NCBI GenBank assembly: GCA_013360465.1
Contig: JABWBO010000001.1
Location: 1-64,000, forward strand
DNA length: 64,000 nt
From: Anaerolineae bacterium
Lineage (GTDB): Bacteria; Chloroflexota; Anaerolineae; Aggregatilineales; Phototrophicaceae
Direction: 5' to 3'
In this document: positions 8,016 through 26,082 of the stretch, in pieces
Layout: each line of letters opens with the position of its first letter
Position numbering within the stretch: the stretch's first letter is position 1
The notes under the pieces: model-generated
Seen by the model: only the letters and a program-made list of their open reading frames with translations
Database searches by the model: none
What the model was told of the DNA's origin: nothing
Program-made: the position numbers and the translations under genes

Positions 8016-8315
8016 GACAACTGAGATCTGCAATGACGTTGACCTGGACGAGTACGTCTTCAAACGGTGTTTCAGAGAGCCGCCGGCAGCTGTGAAGGTG
8101 GTACACACGCGAAGACTGAATGGACCAGCGAGTCGCAGGCGCGAACGCATGATGCTATGCCAATAGCGCCTGCCGGGTTCGCCGCCGTTATCATGGCGAG
8201 GGTATCGGCAGTTTGTACTGCCCGTACTCGAAAGCGGCATCTCCCTTCGGGAAAGATGCAAACAAGGTGGCACCACGGGAACCCCACTCGTCCTTGAACG
8301 AGACGGGGTTTTTTT
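8016..8315 (+). promoter_or_regulatory. T-box riboswitch responding to tRNA-Trp
   Basis: This 477-base gap holds no gene but a T-box leader. Stem I is supported by pairing of GTCTTC (8056-8061) with GAAGAC (8111-8116) and CTGG (8044-8047) with CCAG (8125-8128). A UGG specifier (8121-8123) follows GAA. A stem-III-like hairpin occupies 8238-8260. The T-box AAGGTGGCACCACGGG is at 8264-8279. CAAGG (8263-8267) can pair with CCTTG (8292-8296) as antiterminator, leaving bulge UGGC (8268-8271), which is complementary to GCCA, the end of a tRNA with discriminator G as in bacterial tRNA-Trp. Uncharged tRNA-Trp should therefore prevent termination and switch on trpE. Minor features of stem I were not fully folded by eye. 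Confidence 0.93.
8282..8315 (+). terminator. T-box-controlled intrinsic terminator before trpE
   Basis: The stem pairs CCCC with GGGG and CTCGT with ACGAG around the loop CCTTGA, followed by seven Ts (8309-8315). The left arm and loop overlap the antiterminator pairing region, as required for a T-box switch. Confidence 0.92.
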
Positions 8316-14923: not shown

Positions 14924-16179
14924 ACCAGAAACATATGGTCTGCGCGTTACCGGTGACGCCGACGCGGGAAGTGCTGCTTCAGCAGCGTGATCACACCCCC
15001 GGAATCGCCTATCCGGGCGCATGGACGATCTTCGGCGGGGCGGTCGAACCGGGTGAGACGCCCGACCAGGCGATTCGCCGCGAGCTGACAGAAGAACTTG
15101 AACTGGAAATGCCGCTGCGCTACTGGCACACCTATGTCTGTCCGGTGCGCAGCATCCCCGGCGAACTCGATGTGCTGGTCCACGTTTTTGTGGGCGATCT
15201 CATGCGCCCGGTCGAGTCGCTGACGCTGCACGAAGGGCAGGCGATGGCGCTGGTGGACGAGGCGAAGGCGAAGACCATGTCGCTCGGCTTTGGCAAGACG
15301 CCGGTGCTGCATCGCCTCTTCGATGAGTATCTGCGAGGCAACAACATGACCGTCAGGACGAATGTAGGATTGGACGCGCTCCGATCTATGTTTGCGGCAT
15401 CAAAAGCGCAGGGGAGGGCGGCTTTTCTGCCCTACTACCCGATCGGCTATCCCGACTATGAGGCATCACTGGAGGCGATCCGCGCGATGGCGGCGGCGGG
15501 CGTCGATGGTTTCGAGATCGGCATGCCCTTCAGCGACCCGCTGGCGGATGGTCCGGTCATTCAGGCGGCGACGCAGCGCGCTTTAGAGAACGGCGTCACC
15601 GTACGCAAATGTCTGGACGCGGTGCGGACGCTGCGCGACCAGGGCGTCACACAGCCGATGCTGATGATGGGGTATCTGAATCCGATCCTGGCATACGGCG
15701 CAGATCGCTTTATAGAAGACGCCAGAGCCGCCGGCGCAGACGGTGTAATCGTCCCAGACCTGCCGCCGGAAGAAGCGGCGGAGCTTGCTGCCGCTTGCGA
15801 CCGGCACTGCATGGGGTTGATCTTCTTCCTTGCTCCGACCAGTCGACCGGAGCGCATCCCCCTGATCGCAGAGCGCACGCGCGGGTTCATCTATGTGGTC
15901 TCACTGACGGGCGTCACGGGGGAGCGCAACCAGCTTTCGGCGGAACTAGAGCCGTTCATCGCCCGCGTTCGCGCCCACAGCGCTGATGTGCCGCTGGTGA
16001 TGGGCTTTGGCATCAGCACGCCTGAACACGCTCGTCGGGTCAGCGGACTGGTGGATGGGTTCATCGTGGGAAGCGCGCTGGTGCGGGCAGGCGCGCAGGG
16101 GGTCGAGGCGGTGGCGTCGCTGGCGCGCGACCTGCGTGCGGCGCTCGATCTGCCGGATGATGGAAAGAAAGCCTGTTGA
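14920..16179 (+). CDS. trpA: Nudix hydrolase domain fused to tryptophan synthase alpha subunit
   Basis: 419 residues in one uninterrupted frame. Residues 1-142 form a Nudix domain. Its box runs from Gly40 to Leu62 (Gx5E, then RELTEE) and keeps all residues except the last Gly, which is Glu61. From Met143 a complete TrpA follows with [16 protein letters not shown] (catalytic Glu199 and Asp210) and [12 protein letters not shown]. TrpA cleaves indole-3-glycerol phosphate and passes indole to TrpB. ATG 15346 at the domain junction is preceded by GAGG eight bases upstream, so free TrpA could also be made by internal initiation. The Nudix substrate is unknown. Starts as ATGA overlap with trpB. Confidence 0.93.
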
Positions 16180-16281
16180 GGAATCTGGTTTGCGAAATTC
16201 GGAGATTCTTCAGATTGCTGTGCGTGCTGTTCGTCGCTATGCGAGACACTTTTTGCTTTCATCGGAGGTGAAGACACTGCG

Positions 16282-16311
16282 TTGACAAGGTCTCTGCGCT
16301 CATGCTATCCT
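16282..16311 (+). promoter_or_regulatory. Candidate aro operon promoter
   Basis: Perfect TTGACA (16282-16287), 18-base spacer, TATCCT (16306-16311). A 9-base direct repeat CTCTGCGCT occurs at 16292-16300 and 16310-16318, in the spacer and at the -10/start site, which could be an operator. The upstream stretch 16180-16281 holds no gene I can support. Confidence 0.6.
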
Positions 16312-16334
16312 CTGCGCTGAAGGAGTTCCGGCAC

Positions 16335-16433
16335 ATGCGCGCGTTCTACCGTCGGTTCAGTTTTCGCACCTATCCTGGTTATTACTACAGCGGCGAGAAC
16401 CCGGCGGATCGCGTGCTGCCACGTCTGAACTGA
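16335..16433 (+). CDS. Phe/Tyr-rich leader peptide of the aro operon
   Basis: A 32-codon frame, ATG 16335 to TGA 16431-16433, with GAAGGAG (16319-16325) nine bases upstream. Residues 4-18 read FYRRFSFRTYPGYYY: three Phe and five Tyr in 15 codons, including three Tyr in a row. It sits between a promoter and an intrinsic terminator ahead of aroH-tyrA-aroA, the layout of ribosome-mediated attenuators such as E. coli pheA. When charged tRNA-Phe or tRNA-Tyr is scarce, a ribosome stalled here should favour an antiterminator. The peptide itself need have no function. Too short for most gene finders. Confidence 0.88.
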   Translation: MRAFYRRFSFRTYPGYYYSGENPADRVLPRLN

Positions 16434-16457
16434 CCTTCTCAGGTGAGTAGACCGTAA

Positions 16458-16488
16458 GGCGCAGAGCGACCCGCTCCGCGCCTTTTTT
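16458..16488 (+). terminator. Attenuator terminator of the aro operon
   Basis: GGCGC-A-GAGCG (16458-16468) pairs with CGCTC-C-GCGCC (16472-16482) around a 3-base loop with one A/C mismatch, followed by six Ts (16483-16488). It lies 24 bases after the leader-peptide stop and about 50 bases before aroH. Competing pairing by the preceding leader region (for example TGC-T-GCC at 16414-16420 with GGCGCA) is possible but short. Confidence 0.88.
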
Positions 16489-16536
16489 GTGATCTGCGTG
16501 CGGTCATCGACCCGGCGGCGGTGAAGGAGAGTGGGG

Positions 16537-16908
16537 ATGAGTTTTAGAGGCGTTCGCGGCGCGATTACTATTGACGAAGACAGTGTAGAGGCGATCTTGT
16601 CGGCGACGCGCGAGCTGCTGATCGCCCTGATTGAGGCGAACGAAATCGAAGAAGAGGATGTTGCCAGCGCGATTTTCACGACGACGCCTGACCTGACCGC
16701 GATCTACCCCGCCAGGGCGGCGCGCGATCTTGGATGGACGCAGGTGGCGTTGATTGGCTGTCAGGAAATGCAGGTTCCCGGCGGACTGCCACGCTGCATC
16801 CGGGTGTTGATCCACTGGAACACGCCGAAGTCGAATCGTGAGCTGAAGCACGTTTTTCTGCGAGATGCCATACACCTGCGCCCAGATTTGCACGGACAGC
16901 AGACCTGA
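16537..16908 (+). CDS. aroH: Chorismate mutase, AroH type
   Basis: 123 residues, the size of the monofunctional trimeric B. subtilis-type enzyme. It rearranges chorismate to prephenate, opening the Phe/Tyr branch. Characteristic stretches are [10 protein letters not shown] near the N-terminus, [21 protein letters not shown] and [22 protein letters not shown] 16537 is preceded by AAGGAGA; an in-frame GTG at 16531 is within the ribosome-binding site. First gene after the attenuator. Confidence 0.95.
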
Positions 16909-16969: not shown

Positions 16970-17860
16970 TTGAGCAGTTTCTTTGCCCGACACCTGACGG
17001 TTGTCGGCTTAGGGTTGATGGGAGGGTCTCTGGCGCTCGCTCTGCGCGACAAGGCGCAGACCGTCACCGGGGTGGATATGAGCGCTGAAGCACGCGCCTA
17101 TGCCTTGGCGCACGGCATCGTCGATCAGGTCACGGATGATCTGCGCCTTGGAGTTTCCGAAGCCGATGTTGTGCTGCTGGCTGCGCCGGTCAAAGGGATC
17201 ATCAGCATGATACGTGGCAGGCTTGGAGCCTATCTGCGGTCGAACACGCTGGTCGTGGATATTGGCAGCACCAAGGCGGATATCTGCGAGGCGATGCGAG
17301 AACTGCCGATCGGCATTCAGGCGATAGGGGGACATCCCATGACCGGGAAGGAGTCGCCGGGGATCGACCACTGCGATGCTAACCTATACCGGGATCGTCC
17401 GTTCGTGCTGTGCCCTTCACGGCGGACTACGCCGGCGGCGCGTGACCGCGCGCTCGCGATGGTCGATGCGCTTGGCGCTGTTCCCATCGAGATGGATGCA
17501 GCCCGGCACGACCGCGTAGTCGCCGCTATCAGCCACCTGCCGTACCTGCTGAGCGCTGCGCTGGTGGCGACGGTGAGCAAGGAGGGTGAAAAGGATGACG
17601 CTGTCTGGGGGCTGGCTGCCGGTGGGTTTCGCGACATGTCGCGTCTCGCTGCACAGGATTTGAGCATGATGGGTGACATCCTCAGCACCAACACGCGCGC
17701 GGTGGCGACCCTGCTGGCACAGTTTCGTATGCAGCTCGCCATGATGGAAGCGGCGCTGATCGCTCAGGAGAACGGCACGTTAACGGATATGCTCCGGCCG
17801 GTGCGTCAGGCGCGCCTGGCATGGGCGCATCGACAGGAGAAGACTAAACGTGGCAGTTGA
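16970..17860 (+). CDS. tyrA: Prephenate dehydrogenase
   Basis: About 296 residues. Oxidatively decarboxylates prephenate to 4-hydroxyphenylpyruvate. The N-terminal Rossmann motif is LTVVGLGLMGGSLAL; GGHPMTGKE and the helical C-terminal dimerisation domain with HDRVVAAISHLPYLLS follow. I chose TTG 16970 because AAGGAGG ends six bases upstream and the family sequence begins there; the frame is open to 16865 inside aroH. The end overlaps aroA by 11 bases. Confidence 0.93.
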   Translation: MSSFFARHLTVVGLGLMGGSLALALRDKAQTVTGVDMSAEARAYALAHGIVDQVTDDLRLGVSEADVVLLAAPVKGIISMIRGRLGAYLRSNTLVVDIGSTKADICEAMRELPIGIQAIGGHPMTGKESPGIDHCDANLYRDRPFVLCPSRRTTPAARDRALAMVDALGAVPIEMDAARHDRVVAAISHLPYLLSAALVATVSKEGEKDDAVWGLAAGGFRDMSRLAAQDLSMMGDILSTNTRAVATLLAQFRMQLAMMEAALIAQENGTLTDMLRPVRQARLAWAHRQEKTKRGS

Positions 17861-19160
17861 CCAGTTCATCGTTCAATCGGGGCAGGCGCTTCGCCATGAA
17901 GCCACCGTCCCGGGCGACAAATCTATCTCGCATCGCGCTGTGTTGTTTGCGACGCTGGCGCATGGAGAGACGCGGGTGCGGGGTTGGCTGGCGGCAGGGG
18001 ATACCGAGGCGTCACTTCGTGCTGTGCAGACGCTCGGTGTGGGGGTGGAACGGCACAGCAGAAACGAACTGACGCTTCACGGTGGGGTGTTTCGTCAGCC
18101 GGATGCGCCGCTCGATCTGGTCAATGCTGGTACGGGCATTCGCCTGCTGACCGGGATTATGGTTGGGCAGCCGTTCCCCAGCACCCTGGATGGTAGCGCG
18201 CAGCTGCGCCGGCGACCGATGAACCGGATCATTAATCCGCTGCGCGAGATGGGCGCGGATATCGAGGGCACGGCTGGTTATGCTCCGCTCTATGTGCGCC
18301 CGGCTGCTCTACGAGGAATCCGCTACGATATGCCGGTCGCCAGCGCCCAGGTCAAGAGCGCTCTGATTCTGGCGGCACTTTTCGCCGAAGGGGAAACGAT
18401 CATCACCCAACCAGGTCCCGCTCGCGATCACACCGAGCGCATGCTGATGGCGATGGGGGCGAACCTGATCAGCGAGAACGGTGGGAGCGCTGTGCATGTT
18501 CGGTCAGGTGCAAGACTGCGCCCGCTTGATTTCACCGTGCCGGGCGATGCCTCCTCGGCGGCGTTCCCGACCGTCGCGGCGCTGATCGTGCCGGAGAGCG
18601 CCATCCGCCTGACCAACATCAACCTGAATCCCACGCGCACCGGCATCTTCGATGTGCTGACGGCGATGGGCGGCGATGTCGTCGTCGAAGAGACTGGAAC
18701 CGCCGCCGGGGACCCGGTGGGGACGATCACCGTGCGGCACAGCACCCTGCGCGGCGTCGAAGTCGGCGGGGAAATGGTCGTCCGCATGATCGATGAGTTT
18801 CCGGTCTTCATGGTGGCAGCACTCCTCGCCGAAGGCGAAACTATCGTGCGTGACGCGCAGGAGCTGCGGGTGAAAGAGACCGATCGTATCGCCGTCATGG
18901 CGGGCGAGCTGCGTAAGCTGGGCGCACAGATCGAAGAGCTGCCGGATGGCTTCCGCGTCGTCGGACCTCAGCGACTGCGTGGTGCGGTCGTCGACGGTCA
19001 CGACGATCACCGGGTCGCCATGAGCATGGTCGTGGCGGGACTGGCTGCCGAAGGCGTCACGCATGTACGCGATGCCAGGTGCGCCGCCGATTCTTTCCCT
19101 GGCTATGCAGAGACGATGGCGTCGCTGGGCGCGGCGGTGCGGGTCGAGGCGCTGGGATGA
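17850..19160 (+). CDS. aroA: 3-phosphoshikimate 1-carboxyvinyltransferase (EPSP synthase)
   Basis: 436 residues. Joins shikimate 3-phosphate and PEP. The N-terminus has PGDKSISHRAVLFATLAHGET, then LVNAGTGIRLLTGI, PVASAQVKSALILAALFAEG, and the C-terminal VKETDRIAVMAGELRKLGA and DGHDDHRVAMSM. GTG start with AGGAGA upstream, overlapping tyrA. The NAGTGIRLL loop has Ile where many enzymes read TxxRP, a region linked to inhibitor sensitivity in this family; no claim is made on the phenotype. Confidence 0.96.
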   Translation: MAVDQFIVQSGQALRHEATVPGDKSISHRAVLFATLAHGETRVRGWLAAGDTEASLRAVQTLGVGVERHSRNELTLHGGVFRQPDAPLDLVNAGTGIRLLTGIMVGQPFPSTLDGSAQLRRRPMNRIINPLREMGADIEGTAGYAPLYVRPAALRGIRYDMPVASAQVKSALILAALFAEGETIITQPGPARDHTERMLMAMGANLISENGGSAVHVRSGARLRPLDFTVPGDASSAAFPTVAALIVPESAIRLTNINLNPTRTGIFDVLTAMGGDVVVEETGTAAGDPVGTITVRHSTLRGVEVGGEMVVRMIDEFPVFMVAALLAEGETIVRDAQELRVKETDRIAVMAGELRKLGAQIEELPDGFRVVGPQRLRGAVVDGHDDHRVAMSMVVAGLAAEGVTHVRDARCAADSFPGYAETMASLGAAVRVEALG

Positions 19161-19972
19161 CCGACTACATCGTCGGAGCTATCGGCTGGCCCATCGAGCA
19201 TTCGCTCAGCCCGGCGATGCATAACGCCGCCTTCGCTGCCCTCGGGCTGACGAACTGGCGTTATGAGAAGATGGCGGTTCCGCCCGATGTGCTGCGCCAC
19301 AGCCTGAACGAATTTCGCAATCACGGCTTGATCGGTATCAATGTGACGATCCCGCATAAGCGGGCGGTAATGCCTTTCGTCAAGTGCGATGCTCAGGCGC
19401 GAGCGGTCGGCGCGGTCAACACCATCGACTTTCGTACCAACATCGGCACCAACACCGATGTCGCCGGATTCATGGACGATCTGGCGGCGCACGGCGTCGA
19501 GGTGCGCGGGATGCGCGCCATTGTCCTGGGAGCGGGGGGGGCAGCGCGGGCGGCGGTCTATGGGCTGGTGCAGGCGGGCGCGAACGTGGCGATCCTGAAT
19601 CGGTCACCCGAACATGCTGTGCATCTCATCAATGAGATGGGGGTGAATGCCGATCTCGCCATCCTGGAGAGTCTGCGCGATGCCGACCTGATCGTCAATG
19701 CGACGCCGGTCGGCATGTCGCCGCATGTCGATGCCTCACCCGTTCCAGATGACGCTGTTTTGTCTGCGAAAGTCATTCTTTACGATATGATCTATCGACC
19801 GGCGCGCACACGGCTGATGGCGCAGGTTGAAGCAGCGGGCGGAGTCGCAGTTGGCGGCTTGGGAATGCTGGCGCGCCAGGGCGCGGCGGCGTTCACCTTA
19901 TGGACGAGTGTCGCTGCGCCGGTCGAAACCATGCTGCAAGCGGCGCGCGCTGCTCTCGCCGAAAGATCATGA
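19157..19972 (+). CDS. aroE: Shikimate dehydrogenase
   Basis: 271 residues. Reduces 3-dehydroshikimate to shikimate with NADPH. The substrate domain has SLSPAMHNAAF and NVTIPHKRAVMPF (catalytic Lys68), then GTNTDVAGF (Asp101), and the nucleotide domain has LGAGGAARAAVYGL and LNRSPEHA. The ATG overlaps the aroA stop (ATGA); the longer frame from 19079 inside aroA is not homologous. Confidence 0.95.
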   Translation: MTDYIVGAIGWPIEHSLSPAMHNAAFAALGLTNWRYEKMAVPPDVLRHSLNEFRNHGLIGINVTIPHKRAVMPFVKCDAQARAVGAVNTIDFRTNIGTNTDVAGFMDDLAAHGVEVRGMRAIVLGAGGAARAAVYGLVQAGANVAILNRSPEHAVHLINEMGVNADLAILESLRDADLIVNATPVGMSPHVDASPVPDDAVLSAKVILYDMIYRPARTRLMAQVEAAGGVAVGGLGMLARQGAAAFTLWTSVAAPVETMLQAARAALAERS

Positions 19973-20041
19973 GTACCTACTGATGCCAGGCACATTGTCC
20001 TGATATTGCGGTTGGCAGATCTGCCGACCACCGGAGGCGTT

Positions 20042-21220
20042 ATGCTGCGATTTTTAACCGCTGGGGAGAGTCACGGTCCGTCACTCACCGCGATCCTAGA
20101 GGGAATGCCCGCCGGGCTACCTCTACAGAACGAAGATATCGACCGGGAGCTGCTGCGCCGCCAGACCGGATACGGTTCCGGCGGGCGCATGAACATCGAG
20201 CAGGACACCGCGCAGATCACCAGCGGTGTGATGAACGGCATGACCACCGGTGCGCCGATTGCGCTGGTGGTCGAAAACCGCGACTACAAGAACTGGCGCG
20301 AGAAAGACATCACGCCGATGACCACGCCGCGCCCAGGACATGCCGATCTGACCGGAGCGGTCAAGTACGGCTACCGCGATCTGCGGGTGGCGCTGGAACG
20401 CGCCAGCGCCCGCGAGACGACGATGCGCGTCGCCGTCGGCGCGATCTGCCGCCGTCTTCTGGAGACATTTGATATTCAGATCGGCGGCTACGTCGTCCAG
20501 ATTGGTGGTGTCGCCGCCAATATCGATTCAAATCTCGCCTATGCGGATCGCTTCGCTGCCGCTGAGCAGAGCGACGTACGCTGTCCGGATTCGACGGCAG
20601 CCGAGAGGATGCACGAAGCGATTCGGCAGGCGAAGATCGATAAAGACACGCTCGGCGGGATCATCGAAGTGGTCGCCCTCAACCTCCCGCCCGGTCTGGG
20701 ATCGCACGTCCACTATGACCGCCGGCTGGATGCGCGCCTCGTGGCGGCGATGGTCAGCGTTCATGCCATGAAGGGCGCGGAGATCGGCAGTGCTTTCGAG
20801 AACGCCGGCAAGCGCGGCTCGGAAGTGCATGATATCCTACTGCGCCGTGAAGATGGTGCGCTGACACGCCCGACGAACCGAGCCGGCGGGCTGGAAGGCG
20901 GCATCACGACCGGTGAGCCGATCCTCTGCCGGGTGGCGATGAAGCCGATCTCAACCGTCATGAAGTCGCTCGCCTCGGTCAATCTGGCGACGGGTGAACC
21001 GGAACAGACGACCTATGAACGCAGCGATCACTGTGCCACACCCCGCGCTGTGCCGATCCTGGAGGCAATGATGGCATTTGTGATCGCCGATGTGCTGCTG
21101 GAGAAGCTGGGCGGCGACAGCATTGACGAGATGAAACCCCGCTTTGCGGCACTGCGTCGTTCCCACCTGGACGACTTGCCGATGGATAACGCTGCCTGGC
21201 GGTTCGGCTATGACCGCTGA
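20042..21220 (+). CDS. aroC: Chorismate synthase
   Basis: 392 residues. Converts EPSP to chorismate with reduced FMN. Signatures are FLTAGESHGPSLTAILEGMPAGL at the N-terminus (first conserved His), the RRQTGYGSGGRMNIE segment, and near the C-terminus the RSDHCATPRAVPI region with the second catalytic His. The start ATG 20042 has GGAGG five bases upstream. The 69-base gap after aroE contains nothing else I can support. Confidence 0.96.
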   Translation: MLRFLTAGESHGPSLTAILEGMPAGLPLQNEDIDRELLRRQTGYGSGGRMNIEQDTAQITSGVMNGMTTGAPIALVVENRDYKNWREKDITPMTTPRPGHADLTGAVKYGYRDLRVALERASARETTMRVAVGAICRRLLETFDIQIGGYVVQIGGVAANIDSNLAYADRFAAAEQSDVRCPDSTAAERMHEAIRQAKIDKDTLGGIIEVVALNLPPGLGSHVHYDRRLDARLVAAMVSVHAMKGAEIGSAFENAGKRGSEVHDILLRREDGALTRPTNRAGGLEGGITTGEPILCRVAMKPISTVMKSLASVNLATGEPEQTTYERSDHCATPRAVPILEAMMAFVIADVLLEKLGGDSIDEMKPRFAALRRSHLDDLPMDNAAWRFGYDR

Positions 21221-21719
21221 CACCGACCGCAACATTGTACTGACCGGATTCATGGCGACCGGCAAGACAACTGTGGGGCAGACGGTGGCAAAGCTGCTGA
21301 ACCGCCCGTTTGTGGATGCAGACGAAGCCATCATCCGCCGCGCCGGCATGTCGATACCACAGATTTTCGAGCGCGACGGCGAAGCCGGGTTCCGCGCCCT
21401 GGAGCGTGATGTCTGCTACGATCTGGCAGTCGAACGAGGTAAGGTCATTGCGACCGGCGGTGGTATGCTGGTCGATCCTGAAAATCGCCGGCGGATGCTC
21501 GCTTCCGGGATAGTGGTGTGCCTGGATGCTCCTAAAGAGGTCATTGGGGCGCGGTTGGCGGCGTCGCAGGATCGTCCGCTTGCCGGGGACTGGGCGGCGC
21601 TGCTCGACAAACGCCGCGCGGCTTATGCGGCGATTCCGCTGCACATCAACACCGAAGGAAAGACGCCGGAGATCATCGCGCAGGAGATCATCACGCTGTG
21701 GCGGAACGACTCAGAGTAA
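21210..21719 (+). CDS. aroK: Shikimate kinase
   Basis: 169 residues. Phosphorylates shikimate with ATP. P-loop GFMATGKTT (13-21), substrate-binding DADEAIIRRAGMSIPQIFERDGEAGFRALE, the GGGMLV segment, and a lid Arg in RPLAGD. ATG 21210 overlaps the end of aroC by 11 bases and the gene overlaps aroB at its end, so the three are tightly coupled. Confidence 0.95.
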   Translation: MTADTDRNIVLTGFMATGKTTVGQTVAKLLNRPFVDADEAIIRRAGMSIPQIFERDGEAGFRALERDVCYDLAVERGKVIATGGGMLVDPENRRRMLASGIVVCLDAPKEVIGARLAASQDRPLAGDWAALLDKRRAAYAAIPLHINTEGKTPEIIAQEIITLWRNDSE

Positions 21720-22756
21720 TTGCGCCGGACTCTCAATACGATATCGTGATTGAGGCGGGGTTGTTCGCCGGAGCGAAACTCGTCGATCAGTTCCGCTCCG
21801 ACGGGCGCGTGGCGATCATCACCAATGTCACCCTCCAGCGCTTGTATGGCGACCTGCTGCGTCGAACGCTGCCGGAAGCGCTGATCGTCACCGTGCCCGA
21901 TGGCGAAACGCATAAGACCCTGGCGACGGTGGCGCAGATATACGCTGAAATGGTCGATGGCGGACTGGATCGCCAGTCGACGGTTGTCGCTTTCGGCGGC
22001 GGGGTTGTCGGCGACATGGCGGGATTTGCTGCTGCGACGTACATGCGCGGGGTGAATCTAGTGCAGGTTCCGACCAGCCTGCTGTCGATGGTCGATTCGA
22101 GCGTGGGTGGCAAAGTAGGGGTTGATCTTCCGCAGGGAAAAAACCTGGTCGGTTCTTTCAAGCAGCCGGAAGTCGTCCTGATCGATCCGGCGCTGCTCGC
22201 TACACTCCCTGCGCGCGAACGCGCCTGCGGCATGGCGGAGATCATCAAGCATGGACTGATTGCCGATCCGATCCTGCTCGATCTGATCGCGCGACCTGGC
22301 AGTCTGGAATACGACGCTGAGTTGATTCGCCGGGCGGTGCAGGTCAAAATCGATGTGGTACAGCAGGACCCCTATGAGCAGGGCATTCGGGCGTACCTCA
22401 ATCTGGGGCATACTTTCGGACATGCCATCGAACAAGCTTCTGACTATGCCTTTGCACACGGAGAAGCGGTCGGAATCGGCTTGGTCGCCGCTGCCATGCT
22501 TTCCGCGCGGTTGGGGATGATCGATGCTGGACTCGTCAAGGAAGTACGCCGGTTAGTGGTGCAGGTGGGACTGCCCACCCGCATGGGATCGCTCGATCCT
22601 GAGATCGTGTACGATTTCATGAAATCGGACAAGAAGAAGAAGGCGGGGAAACTCCGGTTCATCCTGCTCAGCGGGATCGCCCAACCGCAGATTGCCGCCG
22701 ATGTAGATGTTCAGGATATCCTCGCGGTGCTGGCTGAGTTACGCGGACATGGCTGA
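21698..22756 (+). CDS. aroB: 3-dehydroquinate synthase
   Basis: 352 residues. Cyclises DAHP to 3-dehydroquinate using NAD and a divalent metal. It contains PDGETHKTL, FGGGVVGDMAGFAAATYMRGV, PTSLLSMVDSSVGGKVGVD, and the metal-binding GLNLGHTFGHAIE-type region (YLNLGHTFGHAIEQ). GTG start, overlapping aroK by 22 bases. Confidence 0.95.
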   Translation: MAERLRVIAPDSQYDIVIEAGLFAGAKLVDQFRSDGRVAIITNVTLQRLYGDLLRRTLPEALIVTVPDGETHKTLATVAQIYAEMVDGGLDRQSTVVAFGGGVVGDMAGFAAATYMRGVNLVQVPTSLLSMVDSSVGGKVGVDLPQGKNLVGSFKQPEVVLIDPALLATLPARERACGMAEIIKHGLIADPILLDLIARPGSLEYDAELIRRAVQVKIDVVQQDPYEQGIRAYLNLGHTFGHAIEQASDYAFAHGEAVGIGLVAAAMLSARLGMIDAGLVKEVRRLVVQVGLPTRMGSLDPEIVYDFMKSDKKKKAGKLRFILLSGIAQPQIAADVDVQDILAVLAELRGHG

Positions 22757-22789: not shown

Positions 22790-23236
22790 ATGTCGAAAAA
22801 GGTCCTGCTGCTGCATGGTCCAAACCTGAACCTGCTAGGTACGCGCGAACCGGAGGTCTATGGCAAGACGACACTCGACGAGATCAACCAGCGCGTCGCC
22901 AGCTATGCCCGCAAATTCGGCGTCGAGCTGCGCGCCGAACAGTCCAACCACGAGGGCGCGTTGATCGATATCCTGCATGTGGCGCGCAATTGGGCGGACG
23001 GCGCGATCTTCAATCCTGGAGCCTACACCCATACCTCCATTGCGCTGCGGGATGCCATTTCCGGCATTCATTTGCCGGTGGTTGAAATACACCTCTCGAA
23101 TGTTCATGCGCGCGAGGAGTTCCGTCACAAATCGCTGCTGGCACCCGTCTGTCTGGGACAGATCAGCGGCTTCGGGTGGCGGGGCTACCTGCTGGCGCTT
23201 GATGCGCTGCTCGGCAGCTGGGGGCTGCTCGATTAG
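22790..23236 (+). CDS. aroQ: 3-dehydroquinate dehydratase, type II
   Basis: 148 residues, the usual size of the dodecameric type II enzyme. It dehydrates 3-dehydroquinate to 3-dehydroshikimate. Signatures: [20 protein letters not shown] (active-site Asn and Tyr), [26 protein letters not shown] and [18 protein letters not shown] 22790 is preceded by GAGG five bases upstream; ATG 22763 would add nine residues. Last gene of the aro operon; a T-run follows at about 23260 but I cannot draw a convincing hairpin. Confidence 0.95.
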
Positions 23237-23347: not shown

Positions 23348-24688
23348 ATGATGAACAAGGCTGTTGTACTGCAAGAGATCGAGAAGCGTGGGGTGAGATT
23401 TGTGAACCTGTGGTTCACAGATATTGCCGGAATCGTGAAGAGTGTGAGCGTTCCGGCATCCCGCATCGAAAGTGTCATCGACAACGGGTTGCATTTCGAC
23501 GGGTCTTCGGTGGAAGGGTTCTCGCGCGTCGCCGAAAGCGACATGGTGCTTCGTCCAGACCTGACGACATTTGCGGTGCTGCCCTGGGATGCACCAGAAG
23601 AGCGGACAGCGCGCTTGATCTGCTCGGTAGAAACGATCAACGGTGAAGCCTTCATCGGCGACCCGCGAAACGCCCTGATCCGGGTGCTGCGCCGTGCAGA
23701 AGAGATCGGTTTTCGACTCAAGACTGGCATGGAACTGGAATACTTTCTGTTTCGTCGTCATGGAGACGCCGGCATCCTTCCTTTGGAGCCGCTGGACGAC
23801 GCCAGCTACTTCGATCAATCAGACGATGAGTCGGAGCGCCTGCGGCGCAGGATGGTTTCGACGCTGATCGAGCTGGGGATTCAGGTCGATTCGTCACACA
23901 ACGAGATCGGTGCCGGACAGCATGAAATCGACTTCACTTATCACGAGGCGTTGGTCTCGGCGGACAATGTGACCACAGCGCGGGTGGCGCTGCGGACCAT
24001 CGCTCAGCGTCACGGGGTGTACTGCACCTTCATGCCGCGCCCCAGCGCGTCGTTCCCTGGTTCCGGGATGCACACGCATCAGAGCCTGCATGACAGCGCG
24101 ACGGATGCCAACATCTTCGTCGATGCCGGACATGAATATGGTCTGTCGGAGACTGCGCAGCACTTCCTTGCCGGACAGCTCGCCCATGCTCGCGCCATGA
24201 CGGCGATCCTCGCGCCGCTGGTGAACTCGTATAAGCGGCTGTCGATCAGCTTTGAAGCGCCAAAGTATGTTACTTGGGCACATGTCAACCGAGCGGGTGA
24301 GGCGATGATTCGCGTCCCTCACATCGCTCCAGGGCGAGAAGCCCATACCCGTATCGAGATCCGCTGTCCCGATTCGAGCGCCAATCCTTACCTGGCGACG
24401 GCGGTGATGCTGGCTGCGGGCTTGGACGGAATCGAGCAGCGAACGTCGCTGCCAGAGGCATTCGAAGGATCGCTGCTTCGGCAGGATCGCTCACGGTTGC
24501 GGCAATTGGCGACTCTGCCGACCTCTCTCGGTGAGGCGCTGAATGCGCTGATGCAGGATGATGTGATCATGGAAGCGCTTGGTCCGTTTATCAGCGACCG
24601 CTATATGGCGTTGAAAGAACAGGAATTGGAAGACTACAATCGACAGATCACCGCCTGGGAGCTGGACTACTACCTGAGCCGGTTCTGA
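23348..24688 (+). CDS. glnA: Glutamine synthetase, type I
   Basis: 446 residues. Makes glutamine from glutamate and ammonia. Family motifs are FDGSSVEGFSRVAESDM, MELEYFLF, EIGAGQHEIDF, GSGMHTHQSL, NSYKRL and IRCPDSSANPYLATAVMLAAGLDGIE. The short length and absence of the LYDLPPEE-type tyrosine motif in the C-terminal third suggest the alpha subtype that is not adenylylated. Start ATG 23348 or 23351; the ribosome-binding site is weak. Convergent with the aspartokinase gene, with 19 bases of 3' overlap. Confidence 0.95.
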   Translation: MMNKAVVLQEIEKRGVRFVNLWFTDIAGIVKSVSVPASRIESVIDNGLHFDGSSVEGFSRVAESDMVLRPDLTTFAVLPWDAPEERTARLICSVETINGEAFIGDPRNALIRVLRRAEEIGFRLKTGMELEYFLFRRHGDAGILPLEPLDDASYFDQSDDESERLRRRMVSTLIELGIQVDSSHNEIGAGQHEIDFTYHEALVSADNVTTARVALRTIAQRHGVYCTFMPRPSASFPGSGMHTHQSLHDSATDANIFVDAGHEYGLSETAQHFLAGQLAHARAMTAILAPLVNSYKRLSISFEAPKYVTWAHVNRAGEAMIRVPHIAPGREAHTRIEIRCPDSSANPYLATAVMLAAGLDGIEQRTSLPEAFEGSLLRQDRSRLRQLATLPTSLGEALNALMQDDVIMEALGPFISDRYMALKEQELEDYNRQITAWELDYYLSRF

Positions 24689-26082
24689 TTCGCAATCATC
24701 TCATGGATGCGGCTCGCAGCTGTCTCGACATGATGCAGCGGCACGATTACGGACAGGCTGCAATTCGACGGATTGCGGGCACAGGCATACAGCGCCAGCC
24801 CCTCCAGCCGGGCGAGAATCTGCGCCATCTGCGGCAGATTCGACCCGACTTCCGCGCCAACCGCTGTAACAATGCCAACGGCTTCCATGGACCAAACTAT
24901 TCCGTCGTCAATCTGCGCCAGGCTGGGCGCCAGCGCCGCTTGCAGCAGGTGTTGGGCGTCGGGACCGATGTAAGTGGGAACGACGAAACAGACCAGGGAG
25001 TGCGTCGCGGATTGCGTGGTGATCATCACCTCCAACCGGCCGCCGGTCTCTCTGCTGAACGCCGTTTCTACGAAGCTGCCCAGTGCCATGAGTGAGCCGC
25101 TGCGCGGAGCCGTCAGCGCCAGCCCTTCGATCACCGTGACGCCCTTTAAGCCGGGCTGAGGAATTCGATCGTCGATCACCGTGCCATGCAGCGCGGGACG
25201 AAAGACATTCTTCACGCGCAGAGGAATATGCCTGTCGCGCAGCGGCGCAATCATACGCGCATGCAGGATACGCGCTCCGTAGAACGCCATCTCGGCGACC
25301 TCTTCGTAGGAGAGGAATGGGATAACCTGGGCTTCTGGCAGTTCTTTCGGGTCGGCGCTCATCATGCCATCAACATCGGCATACATCCAGACTTCGGCGG
25401 CGTCGACACAGGCAGCGATGATGGACGCCGTATAGTCGCTGCCGCCGCGCCCAAGCGTAGTCGGCGTGCCGGTCGGCGTGGCGGCGATAAAGCCGGTGAT
25501 AACCGGGATAATGCTGCGATTCAGCAGCGGTTTGAGGCGCTCATCGACGCGCGCCTGGGTGAGCGGCAGCAGCGGTGTGGCGCTGCCTGATATGTCGTCG
25601 GTGACGATCAAATCGGTAGCATCCAGGGCGACCGCACGCAGATGGTTCTGGCGCAGGAGTGCCGCGATGATGCGCGCCGTAAGCCGCTCGCCGGAACCGG
25701 TGATTCGGTCGATGATCTGGTTGGTGTTCTTGCGTTCGGTGGTTTCGCTCAACTGCTGGCAGGCGTCATGCAGGTCAAAAAGGATGCGGTCGATATCGGT
25801 CTGGAGCGCGCTGCGCTCATTGACGCCAAAGGGAAGATCGCTGATCAGCGACACGTGGCGTGTGCGCACCGTCGCGACGATGCGCCGATAGCCTCGACTG
25901 TTGCTCATCAGAGCGAACTGTGACGCCTCGATGAGCTGGTCGGTGATGCCATCCAGCGCGGAGACCACCAGGATGATCTGATCCCAGCGCGGAGACTCGT
26001 GCAGAACGATGCTCAAGAGCTGGGTGATGCCTGGCGTAATGCCGATAGAACTCCCGCCGAACTTCATCAAGAGCGTTTTCAT
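24670..26082 (-). CDS. Aspartokinase
   Basis: 470 residues. Phosphorylates aspartate for the Lys/Thr/Met family. N-terminal KFGGSSIG (residues 7-14), LVVSALDGITDQLI, TGSGERLTARIIAALL, GRGGSDYTASIIAACVDA and YADVDGMMSADPKELP are typical; the last 170 residues carry two ACT-like regulatory domains (VTVIEGLALTAPRSGSL; VGIVTAVGAEVGSNLP). Length resembles E. coli LysC or the kinase part of ThrA; no dehydrogenase domain is attached. Which amino acid inhibits it cannot be told. Confidence 0.93.
   Translation of the reverse strand: MKTLLMKFGGSSIGITPGITQLLSIVLHESPRWDQIILVVSALDGITDQLIEASQFALMSNSRGYRRIVATVRTRHVSLISDLPFGVNERSALQTDIDRILFDLHDACQQLSETTERKNTNQIIDRITGSGERLTARIIAALLRQNHLRAVALDATDLIVTDDISGSATPLLPLTQARVDERLKPLLNRSIIPVITGFIAATPTGTPTTLGRGGSDYTASIIAACVDAAEVWMYADVDGMMSADPKELPEAQVIPFLSYEEVAEMAFYGARILHARMIAPLRDRHIPLRVKNVFRPALHGTVIDDRIPQPGLKGVTVIEGLALTAPRSGSLMALGSFVETAFSRETGGRLEVMITTQSATHSLVCFVVPTYIGPDAQHLLQAALAPSLAQIDDGIVWSMEAVGIVTAVGAEVGSNLPQMAQILARLEGLALYACARNPSNCSLSVIVPLHHVETAASRIHEMIANQNRLR

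Follow-up and report, generated by a model that had tools for sequence, protein, structure and literature searches.

The aroH gene of an Anaerolineae bacterium of the phylum Chloroflexota opens a shikimate operon and is preceded by a short open reading frame (ORF) in which Phe and Tyr codons are clustered. Does this ORF lie there by chance, or does a ribosome translating it decide whether transcription continues into the operon? Leader-peptide attenuation is a textbook mechanism in enteric bacteria, and an original prediction, made from the sequence alone, had proposed for this locus the arrangement known from E. coli pheA. We analyzed a stretch of 64,000 nucleotides (the whole of which is called the window hereafter) together with the aroH loci of related and more distant genomes. 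The comparisons make it very probable that the aroH leader is a ribosome-mediated transcription attenuator sensing charged Phe- and Tyr-tRNA.

Results

A Phe/Tyr leader ORF and a predicted terminator precede aroH

All elements named in the original prediction, namely the promoter, the ribosome-binding site, the 32-codon Phe/Tyr ORF and the intrinsic terminator, are present in the sequence (Table 1). The promoter carries a TG ahead of its second hexamer and matches at 10 of 12 positions; one such promoter was found in 16000-16800 against 0.2 expected, and it is identical in the sister genome L002. The leader peptide, MRAFYRRFSFRTYPGYYYSGENPADRVLPRLN, has Phe at positions 4, 8 and 10 and Tyr at positions 5, 13, 16, 17 and 18, so that the clustered codons of the putative leader are those of the end products of the pathway. 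Between this ORF and the first gene lies a predicted intrinsic terminator, the hairpin of which (16456-16484) comprises 12 pairs with one A.C mismatch and a loop of 3 (-19.9 kcal/mol) and is followed by a T run at 16483-16488. A repeat search returned a 13-nt inverted repeat at this hairpin, while the terminator was absent from the output of a simple terminator scan. The transcript 16318-16495 folded more stably than 200 of 200 shuffles (z -3.5).

Table 1. Positions in the window of the predicted attenuator elements, the downstream genes and the upstream T-box
Feature	Position	Strand	Basis
Trp T-box (RF00230), 110 bits, before trp genes	8030-8298		Rfam covariance model
Sigma-70-like promoter, TTGACA-18-TATCCT, extended -10	16282-16311	+	hexamer scan
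Ribosome-binding site AAGGAG of leader ORF	16320-16325	+	sequence
Leader peptide ORF, ATG at 16335, 32 codons and TGA (16431-16433)	16335-16433	+	sequence; counterpart aromatic ORFs in relatives
Segment 1, putative protector strand; pairs with 16393-16416 and masks much of the antiterminator strand	16337-16367	+	folds, swap test
Codons 4-18, with 3 Phe and 5 Tyr codons, putatively regulatory	16344-16388	+	sequence
Segment 2, predicted antiterminator 5′ strand, codons 23-29	16403-16421	+	folding, duplex energy, species-swap
Segment 3, predicted antiterminator 3′ strand: terminator 5′ arm, loop and first part of 3′ arm	16455-16475	+	folding
Predicted intrinsic terminator, 12-pair hairpin and six T	16456-16488	+	folding, inverted repeat, covariation in 34 aligned leaders
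aroH, monofunctional chorismate mutase (TIGR01796), ATG at 16537	16537-16908	+	family match
tyrA, prephenate dehydrogenase	16970-17860	+	family matches under curated cut-offs
aroA, EPSP synthase (TIGR01356)	17850-19160	+	family match
aroE, shikimate dehydrogenase (TIGR00507)	19157-19972	+	family match
aroC, chorismate synthase (TIGR00033)	20039-21220	+	family match
aroK, shikimate kinase	21210-21719	+	family matches under curated cut-offs
aroB, 3-dehydroquinate synthase (TIGR01357)	21698-22756	+	family match
aroQ, type II 3-dehydroquinate dehydratase (TIGR01088)	22790-23236	+	family match

The leader had been expected to place the whole common pathway under Phe/Tyr control. This would hold for the steps from aroB to aroC and fails here at the first step, because DAHP synthase is not in the operon: the genome has one match (PF00793), a CM-DAHPS fusion encoded on a different contig (L111, G000:C256). 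The single prephenate dehydratase gene is also located away from the operon, and neither of these two genes has an aromatic leader in the 350 bases upstream. Whereas aroH is followed by tyrA in the window genome, the next pathway gene in most leader-bearing relatives is DAHP synthase (62 of 76, with tyrA in 9 and too little sequence in 5), as in 28 of the 30 positives of the phylum sample described below. The leader consequently stands in most cases ahead of the pathway's entry step.

The leader is conserved in related Chloroflexota

The aromatic density in the window alone is a weak signal, since 7 of 100 sequences obtained by dinucleotide shuffling of the upstream region reached its 8-residue score. 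From the window alone, where the run is only marginal against shuffles, a chance ORF would be possible; this explanation was rejected by comparison with relatives. The gene aroH is present in 54 of 61 genomes (the own genome and members of its genus, family and order), and a phylum sample of 151 genomes contained 75 with a match. The loci read form three sets: the window with 53 relatives; the best 80 of 86 loci from a contig search; and, for the phylum sample, 69 of the 74 other genomes with an aroH match. Many of the relatives are metagenome-assembled genomes, and the sets overlap (L002 is the contig of L090 and L003 that of L107, and some phylum-sample leaders equal those of the titled set). 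A locus was scored positive if at least 4 aromatic residues fell within 8 and if a hairpin of -12 kcal/mol or lower with a T-tail lay at most 110 bases past the ORF stop.

An aromatic leader and a terminator precede aroH in 50 of the 54 genus, family and order loci, the window included; this number counts L085 and L119, whose ORFs were judged unconvincing. Of the four relatives negative by script, L127 does contain an ORF resembling a leader, in which three residues are aromatic. Among the Chloroflexota-titled loci of the contig search, 27 of 41 were positive (L015, titled only 'bacterium', is counted here), and the negatives include L014, L043 and L054, in which the leader is clear and the script located no terminator. 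The phylum sample gave 30 positives and 39 script negatives among its 69 loci. Other families of the class to which the window belongs gave 14 positives among 14 loci read (15 matched, one partial match being left out), and the 16 positives outside the class belong to f24 (8), f34 (6), f62 (one) and f47 (one); all loci read from f29, f30 and f52 were negative by script. The controls of the relatives, the Chloroflexota-titled set and the phylum sample were positive in 2/270, 1/205 and 1/345 shuffles and in none of the reverse complements. No aromatic leader was found before aroH in the 26 tested Planctomycetota-titled loci (28 given), and loci with other titles gave 1 of 11 (L065, titled Gracilibacteria, with a Chloroflexales-like leader), their reverse complements also giving 1.

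Both Phe and Tyr occur in 59 of 60 dereplicated leaders. The identity to the window peptide was 12-33% for 10 of the 11 other leaders aligned, and the aromatic run persists. Most of the related genomes read keep the aromatic codons in a changed peptide and the terminator before aroH, as the original prediction required. The predicted Phe/Tyr leader is not peculiar to the window genome but is kept in many related Chloroflexota. A bias of the leader Phe codons towards TTT (0.73 versus 0.38 in mixed gene ORFs) was smaller against aroH alone (98/186) and was hence not used.

Predicted antiterminator and protector strands

The original prediction had left the antiterminator pairing unclear by eye. 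It is now located: in the fold of 16400-16475 (-34.4 kcal/mol, z -3.1, 0/200 shuffles as good), segment 2 within the leader ORF pairs with segment 3, which includes the terminator 5′ arm. The energy of this duplex, -24.8 kcal/mol, was equalled in 0 of 60 shuffles and in 4 of 200 in a second run (p 0.02). A ribosome at the leader stop codon covers all or part of segment 2, and segment 1 pairs with 16393-16416 when the fold is computed without a ribosome. According to these models, the window shows the four-segment logic of classical attenuators.

We then compared the pairings between species. Structure counts omit by hand L017, L034, L068, L075, L085 and L119 (leader unconvincing) and L090 and L107 (duplicate contigs), from the first swap test on also L036, and throughout the loci without a located terminator. 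For the terminator, the alignment of 34 leaders from the aromatic run to the T-tail contained changes on both sides in 9 of 11 pairs, and 0 of 500 shuffles were as high. For the antiterminator, 72.6% of the cells of the same fixed-column alignment were paired (2/500 shuffles; at most 52% in slid versions), and its covariation in fixed columns was not above shuffles (102/500). Because this fixed-column signal is weak, we used an alignment-free species-swap test, in which segment 2 of each species was paired with its own terminator and with the terminators of all other species; this and the duplex test were carried out on 60 of 72 loci after removal of near-identical rows.

Segment 2 bound its own terminator with -22.7 kcal/mol versus -17.7 kcal/mol for the swapped ones (0/5000 permutations, z -12), although relatedness can inflate such z values even after the removal of near-identical rows. 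After stratification by clades set by rough patterns, z was -10 (0/20000); within these clades it was -7.4 (34 leaders) and -6.9 (23 leaders), and the smallest stratum of 3 leaders gave no signal (z -1.4). The spacer between leader stop and terminator gave no swap signal, and in ten runs with dinucleotide-shuffled segment 2 z ranged between -3.3 and +0.6. For the pairing of segment 1 with segment 2, z was -10.3 (0/5000, 60 leaders). In the comparison of duplex energy with shuffles of the leader's own segment 2, p 0.05 was reached by 39 of 60 leaders. Judged by calculated energies, the leaders fit their own terminators better than those of other species.

These data bear on the most serious alternative, a constitutive terminator that merely insulates the aro operon from trp read-through and in front of which the ORF is fortuitous. 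Such an insulator would lie in a suitable place, the end of trpA being at 16179 and the promoter some 100 bases further on, and the predicted terminator is strong; being placed between the promoter and the first gene, it would nevertheless shut off the operon's own promoter. The available upstream sequence lacks a trpA match in 56 of 76 and in 28 of 30 leader loci. Moreover, while the aromatic score of the window itself is equalled by the shuffles mentioned above (7/100), aromatic leaders persist among diverged peptides and the pairings of segments 1:2 and 2:3 co-vary. We consider an insulator very improbable, and favor the Phe/Tyr attenuator.

Several repeats were seen at the locus. Two copies of CTCTGCGCT lie around the -10 region (16292-16300 and 16310-16318), and 8 bases of this sequence are complementary to the 5′ arm of the terminator (GCGCAGAG); it could serve as a further antiterminator strand when transcription reads through from the trp genes. 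Separately, ACCCGGCGG of the antiterminator strand (16399-16407) recurs at 16510-16518, just 5′ of the aroH ribosome-binding site.

Modeling of ribosome stalling and release

In the models, the stalled ribosome was placed at the last clustered aromatic codon and the released ribosome at the stop codon. The first version (73 loci) was folded only to the loop and so lacked the terminator 3′ arm, some of which belongs to the antiterminator; later versions were extended by 5 bases. The first version gave a weak result, with a paired fraction of 0.71 in the stalled and 0.28 in the released state against 0.59 in shuffles; at most 6 of 60 shuffles were as good in 24 of 73 loci, and 14 of 60 for the window. 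In the extended version (72 loci), the upstream pairing of the terminator 5′ arm had a mean of 0.72 when stalled versus 0.25 when released (window, 0.81 versus 0.32), and a value of at least 0.5 was reached in 68 of 72 stalled and 2 of 72 released states. The same script returned 0.69-0.73 versus 0.00 for the E. coli thr, phe, trp and leu attenuators and did not recover the E. coli his attenuator (0.19 versus 0.12). The duplex-versus-shuffle score picked out only trp among the four E. coli leaders scored.

A further version allows the RNA behind the ribosome to pair (72 loci). The means were then 0.49 stalled, 0.06 at the stop codon and 0.38 without ribosome, with the stalled value above that of the ribosome at the stop codon in 70 of 72 loci; for the window the values were 0.81 stalled, 0.17 without ribosome and 0.00 at the stop codon. 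Segment 1 was masked in about 31% of the modeled stalls. A protector hairpin causing termination without translation is suggested by the segment 1:2 swap signal, but the stalled value exceeded that without ribosome in only 46 of 72 loci.

When the leader was folded with a ribosome at successive codons, the outcome depended on the position. Stalls at codons 4-13 gave the antiterminator with a probability of 0.93-0.95. With the ribosome stalled at Tyr16-18, segment 1 is not covered, and the probability was 0.16-0.39 if pairing across the ribosome was allowed and 0.95 if the RNA behind the ribosome could not pair across it. These Tyr16-18 stalls belong to the codon-by-codon fold only, the pipeline having placed the stall of the window locus (L001) at Phe10, in the densest 8-residue window. 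At equilibrium, the finished terminator of the window wins despite a stalled ribosome, with a probability of 0.89-0.97 at every codon (1-32) and of 0.73 when the hairpin core alone is folded (E. coli controls, 0.83-1.00). Since the complete terminator usually wins at equilibrium, here as in E. coli, the antiterminator must be a kinetic trap. With this proviso, and with fixed-column covariation at the level of shuffles, the modeled antiterminator is exclusive with the terminator, free in the stall and covered at the stop codon.

A T-box and further leaders in the same bacteria

An RNA element or a bound protein might also drive the terminator, the ORF being secondary. The lineage does use T-boxes, as a Trp T-box, the only one found in the window, lies 8 kb upstream before the trp genes, and the 34 aligned relatives resemble one another in the terminator core and in part of segment 2. 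A T-box or other known RNA at the aroH leader itself was nonetheless rejected, as a search of 16270-16545 with the 4227 models of Rfam release 15 returned nothing up to E 10 save a sub-threshold microRNA model. The aromatic codons are moreover kept while the remaining peptide changes. A riboswitch, T-box or protein-bound attenuator is thus an even fainter prospect than the insulator. The least likely reading is that the leader ORF encodes a functional small protein: a short ORF with a ribosome-binding site does recur across many genomes, but outside the aromatic run the peptide is unconserved (12-33% identity for 10 of 11 leaders) and its C-terminal half is constrained by RNA pairing.

The specifier position of the T-box is UGG by our reading of the alignment. 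A T-box binds tRNA directly, without a leader ORF, and resembles the predicted aroH attenuator in tying transcription of the aromatic pathway to tRNA charging. The Trp branch and Phe/Tyr would each have a different kind of tRNA-charging sensor, with a distance of 8 kb between the T-box and the leader.

At E 0.05, a covariance model built from the aroH leader (R1) had matches in 55 of 61 genomes, and nearly all of the strong ones were at aroH. Eleven matches away from aroH were fetched, and six of them have a fitting leader, judged partly by eye; the other five (L253, L254, L256, L257 and L259) have none. An aromatic leader precedes a DAHPS gene in L249, the genome of which also has an aroH leader, and DAHPS-aroA in L250, from a genome without an aroH match. 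In one relative (L251; G044:C19, minus strand), a leader beginning MLRNSNLYYYSK, with three Tyr and no Phe, and a terminator precede tyrS (TIGR00234). The remaining three (L252, L255 and L258) are Thr/Met-rich leaders before aspartate kinase. A match between leader codons and the downstream gene is a strong sign of function.

We therefore examined aspartate kinase in the 30 best-scoring loci of the 61 genomes (L260-L289), and scored a leader as present if 5 or more of 8 residues were Thr/Met and a terminator was located. Twenty-six loci have such a leader, about 100 bases ahead of the gene, with scores reached by 0-2 of 100 shuffles, stall and release means of 0.63 and 0.28, and a swap z of -4.6 (0/5000, 25 leaders). 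The own genome contributes one (L285:1322-1390; G000:C84), a Thr/Met-rich ORF with a terminator. By sequence, these leaders would be the second class of attenuators in these bacteria. Visual inspection of 100 bases upstream of the aspartate kinase gene within the window (24670-26082, minus strand) showed no such leader. L285:1-281, about 1 kb before the own-genome Thr/Met leader, is the 3′ portion of a tmRNA gene (Rfam RF00023).

Ten other own-genome genes (two tyrS/trpS, pheS, hisG, four HMGL-like genes, DAHPS and pheA) had at most 3 aromatic residues in 8 within 350 bases ahead of the first possible start, and no Rfam match. The ilvB region follows another open frame and gave no information on a leader.

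Discussion

The presence of the leader ORF, its codons, the terminator, the mutually exclusive pairings and their conservation are established by computation; from these we infer the stalling, the coupling of transcription to translation and the regulatory response. If Phe- and Tyr-tRNA are both plentiful, the ribosome would reach the leader stop codon and cover segment 2, the terminator would form, and transcription would stop before aroH. If either tRNA is short, the ribosome would stall in codons 4-18 and leave segment 2 free to pair with segment 3 before the terminator 3′ arm is complete, and the antiterminated polymerase would continue into aroH-tyrA-aroA-aroE-aroC-aroK-aroB-aroQ. Without translation of the leader, segment 1 would tend to mask segment 2 and the terminator would form.

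The proposal of ribosome-mediated attenuation as in E. coli pheA is supported by the conserved leaders and terminators and by the exclusive antiterminator. The predicted system shares with E. coli pheL-pheA a short Phe-rich ORF, an intrinsic terminator, an exclusive antiterminator and equal stall/release behavior; however, pheL has Phe codons, no Tyr, and precedes pheA, whereas the leader described here is a mixed Phe/Tyr one before an operon with aroH, tyrA and shikimate genes. As in E. coli thrL-thrA, a two-amino-acid leader would sense the products of a branched pathway, although the pair is Thr/Ile in thrL, Phe/Tyr here and Thr/Met in the Chloroflexota aspartate kinase leaders. The mechanism is known from trp, phe and thr attenuation in E. 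coli; the codon pair, the target and the phylum are new to us.

Leader-peptide systems outside Proteobacteria have been described in Actinobacteria and some Firmicutes; those in the parts consulted (PMC1262725, PMC2965389, PMC9413887) concern other phyla and other amino acids. According to the sections seen, the authors of PMC2965389 knew of no leader peptide system beyond Proteobacteria and Actinobacteria and added a His leader of hisS in Firmicutes; no word starting 'chloroflex' occurs in the main text. In the portions available, PMC3766115 places Chloroflexi among the T-box bearers and four Rfam amino-acid attenuators mainly in gamma-proteobacteria, and PMC2494555 describes T-boxes of tryptophan genes in Dehalococcoides. 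The parts seen of these papers and of PMC4833913 and PMC9413887 describe no such Chloroflexi leader, and our searches of an open-licence PMC library yielded no report of a Phe/Tyr leader of an aroH operon or of any leader attenuator in Chloroflexota.

We think it likely that in Anaerolineae and Chloroflexia attenuation is a general amino-acid control undescribed in this phylum, acting through Phe/Tyr leaders on the synthesis of chorismate and tyrosine (in most genomes including DAHP synthase), Tyr leaders on tyrS in some, and Thr/Met leaders on aspartate kinase, beside the Trp T-box; neighboring branches would then be served by two unlike sensors, and these leaders would have an origin independent of those of Proteobacteria. 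T-boxes and leader peptides would share one pathway. From the attenuator one would expect transcription and translation to be tightly coupled in Chloroflexota, of which we know no test. Dozens of leaders with one logic and different sequences constitute a natural experiment, and annotators gain a way to spot such leader ORFs. A conserved mixed Phe/Tyr case at the gate of aromatic synthesis would extend the range of the mechanism.
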